DNA of 16,593 bases from Candidatus Latescibacterota bacterium (GTDB taxonomy: Bacteria; JAAXHH01; JACQVL01), in assembly GCA_016209865.1 (NCBI GenBank), contig JACQVL010000023.1:1-16593 (forward strand). Direction: 5' to 3'. Shown here piece after piece: positions 107 through 11,128 of the stretch; the stretch's first letter is position 1; each line of letters begins with the position of its first letter. Below the pieces are notes generated by a model. The model was not told the origin of the DNA. It did not search any database and worked only from the letters and a program-made list of their open reading frames with translations. Position numbers and translations under genes: made by a program.

Positions 107-129
107 GACCACTGACCACCGACCACCGA
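107..129 (+). repeat. GACCACY heptamer tract in the 5' leader
   Basis: Three consecutive 7-bp units (GACCACT, GACCACC, GACCACC) plus GA lie just upstream of the ribosome binding site of the first gene. They resemble in unit length the heptamer tracts at 8701-8728, 8886-8913 and 10175-10202, but with a different unit sequence. Confidence 0.7.
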
Positions 130-5681: not shown

Positions 5682-5819
5682 AAGGACGAAGGGGTAAGGA
5701 CGAAGGACGAAAAAGCAAGTGAAAAAGACGAAGGGGTAAGGACAAAGGAGTAAATCTGTCATTCCCGCGCAAGCGGGAATCCATTGCGTCTTTACCCCTT
5801 CGTCCTTCGTCCTTACGTA
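5682..5819. repeat. Composite repeat cluster: inverted AAGGACG heptamer blocks flanking a hairpin
   Basis: The spacer after the haemoglobin gene consists almost wholly of repeats. On the left, variants of AAGGACG/AAGGGGT occur at 5682-5711 and again, degraded, at 5722-5754. On the right, 5788-5814 carries the reverse complement (CTTTACCCCTTCGTCCTTCG and onward). Left and right blocks can pair, with the hairpin at 5761-5780 at the apex. The same heptamer unit reappears inside the gene at 10169. Confidence 0.8.
5761..5780. repeat. Perfect 8-bp hairpin repeat with GCAA loop
   Basis: ATTCCCGC, GCAA and GCGGGAAT form a perfect 8-bp stem closed by a GNRA-type tetraloop, within the longer dispersed repeat GTCATTCCCGCGCAAGCGGG. 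A second copy is cut by the window edge at 1-20. It lies between two convergent heptamer blocks. There is no U-run after it, so it is not a standard intrinsic terminator, although it may slow transcription or protect mRNA ends. Confidence 0.75.
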
Positions 5820-6830: not shown

Positions 6831-7799
6831 ATGCGAGCGTACTGGATCGTCTGGGTATTCGGACTTGGACTCCTGGCCGGGTGTTCCATGTCCGGCGCCG
6901 ACGGGAAGCTGGAGTTCTCCGGCACCCTCGAAAGCACGCGGATGACCGTCAGAGCCCTGACGCCGGGCGTCGTGGTCGCGTTGCCGTTCTCCGAAGGGGC
7001 GCAGGTCGCCACAGGACAGACGGTCGCTCTCATCGACACGACCGACGCGATGTTCGCGCGCGCCAGCCGTCGCGCGCAGCTCGACCTGGCCGAGGCCCAG
7101 CTCCGGCTGCTCTTGCGCGGGGCACGGCCGGAGGACCTCGCCCAGGCGACGCACGCCCTGCACCAGGCGGAAGCCGCGCTGCGCGGGGCGGAGGATGATC
7201 TCAAACGCGTCTCCGCGTTGAGCGAGGTCAGCAGCGCCACGCAGAAGCAGAAGGACGACGCAGAAGTCCGGCATGAGATGGCCGCCCATCAGGCAGCGCA
7301 GGCGGCGGAACTCCTCCGCAAGCTGAAGAACGGCGCCCTCCCAGAAGAACTCGACGCCGCCCGGGCGCGCGTCGCTCAGGCGCGGGCGGAGCTGGCGGTG
7401 GCGGAGAAAGCGGTGGCGGATTGTCGGCTGACCGCCCCGTGGGCGGCCGTCGTCACCGAAAAGCTCGTCGAAATCGGGGACATCGCCCAGCGGTACGGCG
7501 CGCTGATGACGCTGACGCGACTCGACCCGATCACCCTCAAGCTGTACATCCCCGAAGCGGATGTCGGTCGCCTCCACGTCGGCGATCAGGCAGCCGTCCG
7601 GATCGACGCCGACCCGAACCGGTCGTTCACCGGGCGTGTCTCGTACATCGCGCCCGAGGCGCAGTTCACCCCCAAGAACGTCCAGACCAAAGACGAGCGG
7701 GTGCGCCTCGTCTTCGAGGTGAAGGTGGAGATTCCCAACCCGGACGGGACGCTCAAACCGGGGCTTCCCGCCGATGCGACGCTCGGAGCCGGCCGATGA
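6831..7799 (+). CDS. Periplasmic adaptor (HlyD/membrane fusion) lipoprotein of the ABC exporter
   Basis: The 322-residue protein is a membrane fusion protein. A lipoprotein signal peptide ends in the lipobox LAGC with Cys18. A barrel-sandwich/lipoyl half follows (VRALTPGVVVALPFSEGAQVATGQTVALID, within about 40-70), then a long Ala/Glu/Arg-rich coiled-coil hairpin (about 75-190) and the second lipoyl half and beta-barrel (LTAPWAAVVTEKLVEIGDIA around 200-219). It should bridge the two permeases to the TolC-like channel. YbhG, the E. coli counterpart, is also an HlyD-type protein; here the anchor is a lipid. The start has GGAGGGCGGAG just upstream. The stop overlaps the next gene's start (ATGA). 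It is the first gene of the operon. Confidence 0.92.
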   Translation: MRAYWIVWVFGLGLLAGCSMSGADGKLEFSGTLESTRMTVRALTPGVVVALPFSEGAQVATGQTVALIDTTDAMFARASRRAQLDLAEAQLRLLLRGARPEDLAQATHALHQAEAALRGAEDDLKRVSALSEVSSATQKQKDDAEVRHEMAAHQAAQAAELLRKLKNGALPEELDAARARVAQARAELAVAEKAVADCRLTAPWAAVVTEKLVEIGDIAQRYGALMTLTRLDPITLKLYIPEADVGRLHVGDQAAVRIDADPNRSFTGRVSYIAPEAQFTPKNVQTKDERVRLVFEVKVEIPNPDGTLKPGLPADATLGAGR

Positions 7800-8731
7800 G
7801 TGTCATCGACGTCCGCGCGTTCAGTCATCACTACGGCCCGATCCAGGCGGTCGACGGGGTGACGTTCCAGGTCGAACCCGGCGAGATGTTCGGGCTGGTC
7901 GGCCCGGACGGCGCGGGGAAGACGACGATGGTGCGCGCGATCGCCGGGCTGATCCAGCCGGCCGGCGGGACGGTCCGGCTCTGGGATACCGGGTGGGAGC
8001 AAGACCGGGTCGGCCTCAAAGCGCGGATCGGGTACCTGAGCCAGCGGTTCAGCCTGTACGGCGACCTGACGGTCTCGGAGAACGTCGATTTTTTCGCCGC
8101 CGTCTTCGGGGTGGAAGACTACCGCCAGCGGAAGGCCGAGTTGCTGGAATGGACGGGACTCGCCCCGTTTACCGGCCGGTTGGCCGACCGGCTGTCCGGC
8201 GGGATGAAGCAAAAATTGGCCCTCGTCTGTAGCCTGATCCACACTCCCGATCTTCTGCTTTTAGACGAACCGACGGCCGGGGTCGACCCGGTCAGCCGCC
8301 GGGAGTTCTGGCGGATTCTGTCGGAACTCCGCCGCTCCGGCCTGACCCTGCTCGTCACCACCCCCTACCTGGACGAAGCGGAACGGTGCACCCGTGTCGG
8401 GTTCATGGATGGCGGACGGCTGCTCCGGTGTGACAACCCGGCCCGGGTTCGGGCCGAGGCGGGACGGCGTGTCGTCGAGATCATGACCGACGCCCCACGC
8501 GACGCGGCCGCGTACCTTCGCACCCGGCCGGACGTCAGCCATCTGGGCCTGTTCGGCGCGCGGGTCGCGTTCGAATACCCCCCGGATCAGAACATAGACG
8601 CGCTCGTCGAGGCGCTCCGCGGCCGCGCCATCCCGGTGACCGGCGCACGGCGGGTGATGCCGTCGCTGGAGCATCTGTTTATCGGGATGATGACAGATAG
8701 GGGTCAGGAGTCAGGGGTCAGGGGTCAGTAA
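7796..8731 (+). CDS. ABC transporter ATPase 1 (YbhF N-half-like), missing switch histidine
   Basis: The 311-residue ATPase has Walker A GPDGAGKT (36-43), Q-loop Gln83, signature LSGGMKQ (133-139) and Walker B LLLLDE (153-158). The switch-histidine position reads VTTPYLDEAE, with Pro190 in place of His, so its own ATP site is probably inactive or slow. It corresponds to the first half of the fused E. coli YbhF; here the halves are separate genes. The ATG overlaps the adaptor stop (ATGA at 7796-7799). The last ten residues (RGQESGVRGQ, 302-311) are encoded by four GGGTCAG-type heptamers ending directly at the TAA. The original C-terminus was probably near GMMTD, and the tail is repeat-derived. 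It should pair with ATPase 2 and the two permeases. Confidence 0.92.
   Translation: MSVIDVRAFSHHYGPIQAVDGVTFQVEPGEMFGLVGPDGAGKTTMVRAIAGLIQPAGGTVRLWDTGWEQDRVGLKARIGYLSQRFSLYGDLTVSENVDFFAAVFGVEDYRQRKAELLEWTGLAPFTGRLADRLSGGMKQKLALVCSLIHTPDLLLLDEPTAGVDPVSRREFWRILSELRRSGLTLLVTTPYLDEAERCTRVGFMDGGRLLRCDNPARVRAEAGRRVVEIMTDAPRDAAAYLRTRPDVSHLGLFGARVAFEYPPDQNIDALVEALRGRAIPVTGARRVMPSLEHLFIGMMTDRGQESGVRGQ
8701..8728 (+). repeat. Four GGGTCAG heptamers forming the C-terminus of ATPase 1
   Basis: The units are GGGTCAG, GAGTCAG, GGGTCAG and GGGTCAG, followed immediately by the stop codon TAA. The tract is the reverse complement, at 26 of 28 positions, of the tract at 8886-8913 on the other side of the TolC-like start. 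Confidence 0.92.
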
Positions 8732-8777
8732 AAACCACAACACGATCAGAGTGAGTCAAATGAACCGAGGGAGTACC

Positions 8778-10172
8778 ATGAAACACACGACATGGATCTG
8801 GTTCGGGGTCATCTGGGGGCTTGTTCATTCATCCCTCGCGCTGGCGAATCGACCTGATAAACCCCTGACATCGGGCGATGCAGTCCTGACCCCTGACCCC
8901 CGACCCCTGACCCCTGTTGTCACTGTCGACGAAGCCGTCCGGATGGCGCTCGACGCCAGTCCGATCCTCCGGAGCGCCCGGCGAGCGGTGGACGCCCAGG
9001 AGGCGATCGTCTCCCAGGCCCGATCCGGGTACTATCCCCGTCTGGCCACGCAAACCCGGTATACCTGGCAGAGCGAGGTCGATCCGTTCCTGATCACCGT
9101 CCCGGCGGCCGGCCCCGGCCTGCCCCGCTCGATTCAGGTGTCTCCGGTGGTCACGAACACCTACGGGGTCAGAGCGCAGGTCCAGCAGGCGGTGTTCACG
9201 GCGGGACGGATCGGGCATCGGGTGGAAGCTGCCCGGTCTCAGACAGACGCGACACGAGCCCGGTACGATCAGACGAAGTCCGACTTCGTCTTCCGGGTCA
9301 GGCAGGTCTACTGGGAGGGGGTGCGGGCGGCCGAACTCCTCCGGCTGGCCGAAGACGGCCTCCGGCGCGTCGAGGCGCACCGGAAGGACCTGGAGCATCT
9401 GCGGTCGGTCGGGATGGCGGTCGACCGTGACCTCTTGCAGGCGACCGTCCAGGAGGAGGAAACCCGGCTCCAGGCGGTCCGGGTCGAAGAACGTCGCGAC
9501 CTGGCCCTCATCGAACTGCGCAGCCTGCTTGGCCTTCCGCTCGACCGGGAGGTCGTCCTGAGTGACCCACCCGTTCCCGTAGAGGGACCGGCGGGGACGG
9601 TCGATGAGTTCGTCCGCCAGGCGATCGCGCAGCGGCCTGATCTGACGGGCGTCCGCGCCCAGGTCGAGGGGGCGCGGAGTACGATCCGTACCGCCCGGAG
9701 CGAGTGGTTTCCGCAGGTCTCCCTGCTTCTCAACACCGACTACGCCCGGCCGAACGTCCGGTTCGTCCCGCTGAAGGATACCTGGCGGCGGAGCTGGGAA
9801 GCCGGGGTGATGTTCAACTGGGACGTCTACGACGGCGGATACCGGAGCGCCCGGTCTGCCGAGGCGCAGGCCCGTCTGGACGCCGCAGAAGCCCAGGCCG
9901 AGGAGACCGTCCGGCAGGTCACGCTGGATGTCCACCGGGCGGTCCGAGAGGTCGCCCTCTCATTCCAATCCTGGAACGTCGCCCGGACACGGGTCGCGTC
10001 CGCCGAGGAGAGCGCCCGGGTGACGCGGGCGCAGTTCGTGCAAGGCCTGGCGCTCAGCGCGGACGTCCTGGACGCGGAGAACCGGCTCTTAGCCGCTCGA
10101 ACCGACCAGGCGTCCTCTGGGATCGATTGGATGATGGCGACGGCGGCGCTCGACCGGGCGGTCGGAAGATGA
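8778..10172 (+). CDS. TolC-like outer membrane efflux protein
   Basis: The 464-residue protein has a Sec signal peptide (hydrophobic 5-20, cleavage predicted after ALA at residue 23) and two repeated outer-membrane-factor domains. Each contains long helical segments with the typical pattern (VTVDEAVRMALDASPILRSA; later ARTDQASSGIDWMMATAALD near the end). It should trimerise in the outer membrane and form the exit duct for the ABC exporter; a dedicated channel gene within a YbhF-type operon is useful evidence for tripartite export. ATG 8778 is preferred to GTG 8751 because GAGGGAG sits six bases upstream and the signal peptide then starts correctly. Residues 37-47 (LTPDPRPLTPV) are encoded by a heptamer tract inserted between signal peptide and mature domain, where a linker is tolerated. 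The stop overlaps the ATPase 2 start. Confidence 0.93.
   Translation: MKHTTWIWFGVIWGLVHSSLALANRPDKPLTSGDAVLTPDPRPLTPVVTVDEAVRMALDASPILRSARRAVDAQEAIVSQARSGYYPRLATQTRYTWQSEVDPFLITVPAAGPGLPRSIQVSPVVTNTYGVRAQVQQAVFTAGRIGHRVEAARSQTDATRARYDQTKSDFVFRVRQVYWEGVRAAELLRLAEDGLRRVEAHRKDLEHLRSVGMAVDRDLLQATVQEEETRLQAVRVEERRDLALIELRSLLGLPLDREVVLSDPPVPVEGPAGTVDEFVRQAIAQRPDLTGVRAQVEGARSTIRTARSEWFPQVSLLLNTDYARPNVRFVPLKDTWRRSWEAGVMFNWDVYDGGYRSARSAEAQARLDAAEAQAEETVRQVTLDVHRAVREVALSFQSWNVARTRVASAEESARVTRAQFVQGLALSADVLDAENRLLAARTDQASSGIDWMMATAALDRAVGR
8886..8913 (+). repeat. Four CTGACCC heptamers inside the TolC-like gene
   Basis: The units are CTGACCC, CTGACCC, CCGACCC and CTGACCC, followed by CTG. They encode part of a Pro-rich linker (LTPDPRPLTPV) between signal peptide and mature protein. 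The tract is inverted relative to the GGGTCAG tract at 8701-8728. Confidence 0.92.
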
Positions 10173-11128
10173 GCAAGGACGAAGGACAAAGGACAAAGGA
10201 CGAAGAGCACGCGATTGCGGTGAACGACCTGACCAAACGGTTCGGGCATTTCGTGTCGGTCGATCGGGTGAGTTTCACCGTCGATCAGGGGGAAGTGTTC
10301 GGGTTTCTGGGCCCGAACGGGGCGGGGAAATCGACCACCATCCGGATGCTCTGCGGCCTGTTAGAGCCGACATCGGGGGAAGGCCGGGTGGCCGGGTTCG
10401 ACATCACGCGAGACCCCGACCGGGTGAAAGCGCACATCGGGTACATGTCGCAGCGGTTCAGCCTGTACGAGGACTTGACGCCGATGGAGAACCTGCTGTT
10501 CTACGGCGGAGTGTACGGCCTCTCCGGGCAGCGCCTCCGGGCCCGCGTCGAGGCGGCCGTCGAGATGGCCGGGATCGCAGACCTGCGGGACCGACTGACC
10601 CACGACCTCCCCGGCGGGTGGAAGCAGCGCTTAGCCCTCGGCTGCGCCCTCCTGCACGAGCCGAAGATCCTGTTTCTCGACGAACCGACGGGCGGGGTCG
10701 ACCCTCTCTCCCGGCGCCGGTTCTGGGAGTTGATCGACGACCTGGCCGATCGCGGGGTGACGGTGTTCGTGACCACCCATTTCCTCGACGAAGCGGAGTA
10801 CTGCCGGCGCATCGGTCTGATCAACGCGGGCCGACTCGCCGCCATCGGCACGCCGCACGAGTTACGGGAACGGTTTGTCCCACACCCTGTCTACGAGGTC
10901 GTCACCTCCGACCCGATCGCGGCCATGACCGTGCTCGAACGGGAAGCCTGGGTGCGCACGGCGTCGATCTTCGGGACGAGCGTGCATGTCGAGGTCCAGG
11001 ACCCTGCCACCGACCCGGCCCGGATCGTCCCCACGCTCACGGCAAACGGCCTGACTGCCTCATCCCCTGAAGCGATCACCCCGTCCTTAGAAGACGTGTT
11101 CTTAGCAGTGCTCGAACAGGCGACGTGA
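10169..11128 (+). CDS. ABC transporter ATPase 2 (YbhF C-half-like)
   Basis: The 319-residue ATPase has Walker A GPNGAGKS (48-55), Q-loop Gln95, signature LPGGW (147-151, in place of LSGGx), Walker B ILFLDE (167-172) and switch His204 (VTTHFLDEAE). It has the catalytic parts ATPase 1 lacks, while its signature is the altered one. In a heterodimer its site would be completed by the canonical LSGGM of ATPase 1, giving one normal and one degenerate site. The ATG overlaps the previous stop (ATGA at 10169-10172), with only a weak ribosome binding site. Residues 3-13 (KDEGQRTKDEE) are encoded by AAGGACR heptamers, and the conserved domain begins at about residue 16. GTG at 10220 is an alternative start that would skip the repeat. 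Confidence 0.92.
   Translation: MSKDEGQRTKDEEHAIAVNDLTKRFGHFVSVDRVSFTVDQGEVFGFLGPNGAGKSTTIRMLCGLLEPTSGEGRVAGFDITRDPDRVKAHIGYMSQRFSLYEDLTPMENLLFYGGVYGLSGQRLRARVEAAVEMAGIADLRDRLTHDLPGGWKQRLALGCALLHEPKILFLDEPTGGVDPLSRRRFWELIDDLADRGVTVFVTTHFLDEAEYCRRIGLINAGRLAAIGTPHELRERFVPHPVYEVVTSDPIAAMTVLEREAWVRTASIFGTSVHVEVQDPATDPARIVPTLTANGLTASSPEAITPSLEDVFLAVLEQAT
10175..10202 (+). repeat. Four AAGGACR heptamers at the 5' end of the ATPase 2 gene
   Basis: The units are AAGGACG, AAGGACA, AAGGACA and AAGGACG, followed by AAG. The same unit occurs in the spacer at 5682-5819. The tract begins two codons after the ATG and produces a highly charged N-terminal extension. It also contains AGGA cores that resemble ribosome binding sites. 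Confidence 0.9.

Follow-up and report, generated by a model that had tools for sequence, protein, structure and literature searches.

Probable heptamer-armed inverted elements at gene boundaries of a Latescibacterota genome, with one matched pair reaching into two genes of an efflux operon

Among the described bacterial repeats, two are close to the arrays presented here: (i) the GGGNATC repeats of Xanthomonas and Nostoc; and (ii) the TAACTGA repeats of the Beggiatoaceae. The GGGNATC repeats show a preference for four units and are mostly intergenic, no more than 50 bp away from an ORF end (Rehm et al., 2015, PMC4692102). Their G-strand is sense after stop codons and antisense before start codons, and 70-75 convergent pairs of them occur in Xanthomonas; four-mers of the GGGAATC unit form G-quadruplexes (G4), and the functional role of the repeats is, according to the same authors, still to be elucidated (Rehm et al., 2015, PMC4692102). 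The TAACTGA repeats are found mainly directly upstream of start codons, with one inverted pair, and a translational role has been proposed for them (MacGregor, 2015, PMC4679880). As far as the literature cited in PMC4692102 goes, heptamer repeats are over-represented in bacteria, and Calothrix, like the genome studied here, carries several heptanucleotide tandem repeats in one genome.

The window, that is, the whole stretch of 16,593 nucleotides that was analysed, comes from a draft genome of Candidatus Latescibacterota and contains an operon with the order HlyD-ATPase-TolC-ATPase-permease-permease-TetR, which the Pfam assignments identify as an efflux operon. Two heptamer arrays face each other at the boundary between the first ATPase gene and the TolC-like gene, and others are found nearby. 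The features referred to below are the following:

107..129, - strand: C-rich arm of family B (GGTCGGT), ending 19 nt before the first ORF start (149).
5682..5814, no single strand: second matched '+-' pair, family E, with a degenerate G-arm (5682-5753) and a C-arm (5797-5814).
7796..8731, + strand: ABC transporter ATPase 1 (Pfam PF00005, E 1.5e-30), about the last 11 residues of which are array-coded.
8699..8728, + strand: G-rich arm with 4.3 units of family F (GGGTCAG); its G-strand is sense, it is joined to the 3' end of the ORF of ATPase 1, and TAA comes directly after it.
8729..8884, + strand: interior (loop) with the ATPase-1 stop codon and a spacer, and with the ribosome-binding site of the TolC-like gene and the codons of its signal peptide.
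8767..8773, + strand: Shine-Dalgarno-like GAGGGAG, 4 nt before the ATG at 8778 (direct reading).
8778..8846, + strand: codons of an apparent signal peptide, MKHTTWIWFGVIWGLVHSSLALA (direct reading of the sequence).
8778..10172, + strand: TolC-like outer membrane efflux protein (Pfam PF02321, OEP, E 3.1e-62).
8885..8916, - strand: C-rich arm of family F, 4.6 units, G-strand antisense, in the TolC-like ORF right behind the signal peptide.
10175..10205, + strand: family E array (AAGGACG) immediately after the TGA that ends the TolC gene (10170-10172), translated as the N-terminus of ATPase 2, MSKDEGQRTKDEE.

The geometry of the central pair is as an earlier note on this DNA had described it. Four GGGTCAG-type units (GGGTCAG, GAGTCAG, GGGTCAG and GGGTCAG) occupy positions 8701-8728 and end at the stop codon of ATPase 1 (TAA, 8729-8731); after a gap of 157 nt (8729-8885), four CTGACCC units (CTGACCC, CTGACCC, CCGACCC and CTGACCC) occupy positions 8886-8913; and over the span taken in that note the tracts are complementary at 26 of 28 positions. 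A repeat finder places the arms at 8699-8728 and 8886-8915, with 28 of the 30 nt complementary (93%), and Tandem Repeats Finder assigns a period of 7 to both arrays (scores 53 and 57). The window contains 11 copies of the unit GGGTCAG where 3.2 would be expected (0 of 200 shuffles), and the dimer GGGTCAGGGGTCAG has 79 copies in the whole genome of 3.75 Mb, whereas its reversed control has one.

Both tracts are read as protein, which had also been noticed: the ATPase-1 frame closes with ...RGQESGVRGQ before its stop codon (C-terminal end of the ORF: ...MMTDRGQESGVRGQ), and ...VLTPDPRPLTP... stands behind the TolC signal peptide. ATPase 2, a paralogue in the same operon, can be aligned to ATPase 1 only up to residue 299 (...MM), and the tail of ATPase 1 is therefore taken as an array-coded addition. 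Since the array at 10175-10205 codes for the first residues of ATPase 2, three protein ends in one operon are repeat-coded. Annotators should be aware that protein ends beside such arrays may be repeat-coded. No homologous copy of the interior (8729..8884) was found in the sampled part of the genome. As to orthologues of the TolC-like protein at this locus, the best match outside the genome is 28% identical, the nearest genomes compared being of the same order only, and a protein scan of named genomes for relatives found none.

The arrays at 107-129, 5682-5814 and 10175-10205 had been overlooked by the earlier note, as had the occurrence of such arrangements throughout the genome. The pair at 5682-5814 (AAGGACG) encloses a palindrome, ATTCCCGCGCAAGCGGGAAT, at about 5761-5780. 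This palindrome recurs inside many other pairs of the genome and presumably resembles the dRS3-like repeats of Neisseria.

For the rest of the genome, a draft of 356 contigs and 3.75 Mb that is 83% complete, arrays were counted in 60 stretches (658 kb, about one fifth of the genome) picked regardless of repeats. The ORF ends come from a simple home-made caller, which misses some small genes and puts the TolC start at 8943, not 8778, and the array families were grouped manually, tolerating one mismatch. The sample contains 143 arrays of period 7, and at most 15 of any other period from 4 to 20, the harmonic 14 excepted; by extrapolation, the genome would hold about 800. In 304 kb of four genomes of the same order, 3 period-7 arrays were found. 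At least nine unit dialects coexist in the genome, namely AGTGACN (54 arrays), GGTCGGT (25), GGATTTT (19), CGGGGTT (11), AAGGACG (9), and the smaller families GGGAAAT (7), GGGTCAG (5), GTGAAGA (5) and GCGGATT (4). The commonest array lengths are 3 and 4 units, with a partial unit added (in family D, 13 of 13 cases have exactly 4 units and then CGGG), and an inner flank AAA after the last partial unit is conserved in families A, B, D, E and F. The commonest family, A (AGTGACN), has no GG in its consensus unit, yet it shows the same length, polarity and pairing. Two families with 345 and 40 pattern hits in this genome have none in 58 other genomes, 15 of them of the same order, and so their expansion is lineage-specific, while the GGGTCAG unit is present in many phyla.

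The arrays are strongly polarized with respect to genes. Within 60 bp of ORF ends the G-strand is directed outward in 108 cases and inward in 10, and 5 of the 143 arrays lie inside a CDS. Where two arrays are neighbours within 300 bp (31 cases), they are arranged as '+-' in 27, '++' in 2, '--' in 2 and '-+' in none. Both arms belong to the same family in 24 of the 27 '+-' pairs, against 5.6 expected (p<5e-5, 20,000 draws); the corresponding figures are 1 of 10 for pairs that bracket a gene (- gene +) and 16 of 66 for distant neighbours. Concordance across the spacer, and not around the gene, indicates that the spacer pair is the unit. The window pair, with family F in both arms, is a regular member of this class, except that its C-rich arm lies inside coding sequence. 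Gene-bracketing pairs were also considered as cassettes and were ruled out, the family being shared in only one of the ten.

Outside the Latescibacterota genome, a 24-base GGGTCAG tract occurs in Cyanobacteria, Actinomycetota, Acidobacteria, Planctomycetota, Chloroflexota, Bacteroidetes, Verrucomicrobia, Gemmatimonadetes, Thiobacillus and others. Neighbours around these cross-phylum tracts are '+-' in 42 cases and '-+' in 6, and all ten genomes reached via such loci contain the pattern, against 0 of 10 for the reversed control. Dozens of species of Thiobacillus were available for comparison, and this evidence bears on the kind of element, not on the window locus. In that genus, the spacer before a gene starting MYSDRVLSGMRPTGRLHLG, which we take to be trpS, is flanked by genes that are 81-92% identical between species and carries C-rich arrays whose units differ between species (CTGACCC, CCACTCA, CCTAGCC, CGACTCT and CCTGAAT). 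Its period-7 autocorrelation is 0.62, against 0.34 in shuffles (z 17.7), and other periods give nothing except 14.

The comparison was extended to two spacers that hold '+-' pairs, with 30 and 14 Thiobacillus species, respectively. With dialect labels that rest on a chosen set of units, both arms carry the same dialect in 21 of 30 (10.6 expected, p<5e-5) and in 10 of 14 (3.1 expected, p 5e-5). Arms form a better duplex with their own partner than with arms of other species, both at locus 1 (z -4.8) and at locus 2 (z -7.3). Within well supported tight clades, switches occur in G066 (TCA), G117 (CTA) and G096 (TGA-like) at locus 1, and in G066 (TCA), G096 (TGA) and G064 (GAGTCGA) at locus 2; at these two orthologous spacers, both arms switch dialect together between species. 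Whole Thiobacillus elements (arms plus a GC-rich core) are also present at unlinked loci, and because the core motif ATTATAG is common to the pair loci and the unlinked copies, rewriting in place is indistinguishable from replacement of the element.

In general terms, the kind of element is already known, since the GGGNATC repeats described from Xanthomonas and Nostoc belong to it and the TAACTGA arrays are related. With the former it shares the number of heptamer units (4.3 and 4.6 in the window), the genome-wide polarity near ORF ends and the convergent close pairs. It differs from them in that (i) at least nine dialects are present, the commonest without G-runs, with dialect-matched arms and an AAA inner flank; (ii) the arms switch dialect together between species, as seen in Thiobacillus; and (iii) the window arrays overlap coding sequence, the C-rich arm being inside the TolC ORF. 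The TAACTGA repeats (PMC4679880) are likewise dispersed intergenic heptamers with an ORF-related orientation, a patchy distribution across phyla and an occasional overlap with ORF ends, but they consist of a single heptamer instead of several dialects and include only one inverted pair. REP, BIME and REPIN elements are also dispersed, stem-capable intercistronic inverted repeats near stop codons; however, the arms described here are tandem heptamers and not REP palindromes, and the RAYT (Y1) transposase was not found. Miniature inverted-repeat elements (MITEs) are similar in being short, with inverted termini and dispersed copies, whereas the termini here are variable tandem arrays and neither a target duplication nor a link to a transposase was found. 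We know of no pairing or polarity analysis of the Calothrix heptanucleotide repeats. In the literature searched, no report of matched multi-dialect pairing or of joint arm switching was found.

The two family F tracts of the window probably belong together as the matched arms of a single inverted element, one of a class with heptamer arms that occupies ORF boundaries throughout the genome; the two arms would be kept similar by events on the DNA, or else be replaced jointly. The step from the matching of the arms to its cause is one that we infer. A DNA-level process keeping the arms alike could involve either (i) hairpin- or template-switch-based copying between the inverted arms, combined with slippage of the 7-nt unit; or (ii) replacement of the whole matched element by conversion or transposition. 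Against this explanation, the C-rich arm of the window lies in a CDS and the interior contains a gene start, unlike most members (5 of 143 arrays in CDS). Furthermore, the explanation leaves the 7-nt period unaccounted for.

A rival explanation places the selection on RNA. The long mRNA stem suggested as a possibility by the earlier note is borne out computationally, the region 8690-8930 having a minimum free energy of -108.9 kcal/mol against -81.8 in shuffles (z -5.1), and a transcript through ATPase 1 and TolC is predicted to be able to fold into this inter-arm stem. That such a hairpin is selected because it regulates the translation or the stability of the mRNA, in this case for TolC in relation to ATPase 1, is nevertheless unlikely. 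In Thiobacillus, one pair forms a perfect 34-bp stem (z -13.6) and own-arm complementarity exceeds cross-species complementarity, as would suit a selected stem, but it is the antisense strand that is more stable (p 0.007 and 0.013), and opposed mismatches on the mRNA strand are A.C in 60 cases and G.U in 35, the reverse of what RNA selection predicts. In the window genome, on the other hand, 26 co-directional pairs have a slightly more stable fold on the sense strand than on the antisense strand (p 0.014), so that the two lineages contradict each other in this asymmetry. Selection for pairing locus by locus should make own-pair arms fit better than same-family arms from other pairs. Each arm in this genome carries its own variant units, and in three families no excess of own-pair over other-pair complementarity was found (permutation p 0.83-0.999); selection for the stem is therefore unsupported in this genome, the complementarity of the arms being no greater than family identity explains. 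In the family GGATTTT, own-pair arms are even less alike than other-pair arms (p 0.9994), perhaps because perfect inverted repeats are avoided. Column-wise covariation in 29 orthologues (RNAalifold) is uninformative because the register of the arrays slips, and the search with Rfam covariance models gave a match at chance level only (E 0.79, 12.7 bits against a gathering score of 42). The proposal that the stem sets the ratio of channel to ATPase at this particular locus is not supported: an estimated 800 or so arrays lie with identical polarity around genes that have nothing to do with each other, those seen so far adjoin genes of unrelated function, and own-pair arms are not extra complementary. 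A simple locus-specific regulator is ruled out by the genome-wide occurrence. A side effect on expression at the boundary of ATPase 1 and TolC, through 3'-end stability or read-through into TolC, is plausible; it would be secondary and not special to this operon.

The remaining rivals concern mobility, DNA structure and chance. According to the first of these, the pairs would be MITE-like non-autonomous transposons, with the heptamer arrays as terminal inverted repeats, inserted between genes by a transposase acting in trans; we consider this rather doubtful. Terminal inverted arms with a conserved inner flank and length would fit such an element, as would the two families missing from the 58 other sampled genomes, same-order ones included, and the whole copies at unlinked loci both in Thiobacillus and in this genome (one element of 138 bp, bounded by arrays, at two loci with 89% identity; another interior 98% identical between two loci). 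However, for 18 of the 31 interiors no homologous sequence is present in the sampled fifth of the genome, the interior of the window pair is a native gene start, and one orthologous spacer has kept its array although the units vary from species to species. Co-directional spacers have a median length of 38 bp when free of arrays and of 195 bp with a pair, which falls to 26 bp after subtracting the pair span; this fits insertion, and is equally expected if arrays flank ordinary operon boundaries. In 29 pairs, no convincing k-mer indicating a target-site duplication was found at fixed offsets above the expectation from mismatched pairs. Within the 83%-complete genome, there is no match to the Y1 transposase (RAYT, TnpA_REP, PF01797), for which five control genomes were positive, or to reverse transcriptase (PF00078). 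For these reasons, namely the lack of target duplication, Y1/RAYT and reverse transcriptase and the unmatched interiors, simple transposition is unsupported. On the same two Pfam searches of this incomplete genome, REPIN/RAYT and reverse-transcriptase-based addition of repeats were ruled out. Of the suggestion that the segment is a recombinogenic cassette, the part that stands is that matched-arm elements disperse and are rewritten over evolution; no sign of segment inversion was seen in this genome. It is most improbable that folding of the G-rich strand of four units into G4 DNA or RNA at gene ends explains the arrays: four-mers of GGGAATC do form G4 (PMC4692102), and the strand opposite the C-rich arm of the window can be read directly as having four runs of GGGG or more, but the G-rich arm (8699-8728) has only three intact GGG runs (its second unit is GGAGTCA), and the quadruplex is rejected as a general cause because the commonest family, AGTGACN, has the same length, polarity and pairing without G-runs. 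Hardly any credence can be given either to neutral slippage alone, by which arrays would arise and drift through replication slippage with their orientation left to chance. Units do drift within and between arrays, in line with the over-representation of heptamer repeats already mentioned (literature cited in PMC4692102), but chance is far from explaining the orientation, the position and the agreement of the arms; moreover, one and the same heptamer is present in many phyla, and the arms switch together.

Taking the matched-arm explanation further, it may tentatively be proposed, with more doubt than conviction, that bacteria possess a general and so far unrecognised process, acting on DNA with a period of 7 nt, by which matching inverted arms are written and rewritten at either side of gene boundaries, the dialect of both arms changing jointly while position and polarity stay the same; the window pair would then be an element of this type that has spread into coding sequence at both ends. 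In any case, genes flanked by heptamer arrays are numerous in this genome and in many others. Multi-dialect matched arms, together with joint switching in sister species, constitute a tractable evolutionary experiment, through which it can now be asked whether the match of the arms results from base pairing, from template switching or from replacement of the element, and what lies behind the period of seven.

Some minor observations on the build of the elements can be added. In the window genome, arrays of different families are sometimes adjacent and in the same direction (GGTCGGT then AGTGACN), as if elements were nested (stretches L023, L010, L019 and L017). In Thiobacillus, the start-side arm is usually longer and purer (GGGGTCA, about 6-12x) than the stop-side arm, which consists of GGATTCA-type variants (L379-L388, L349-L360). 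Several elements of this genus share the core ATTATAGGGCGCGGCCnnGGCCGCTCA (L301:2303-2430, L379-L384), which reads on the gene strand as TATAAT followed by a C-rich heptamer leader up to the ATG, with no obvious Shine-Dalgarno sequence, as if these elements carried a promoter.
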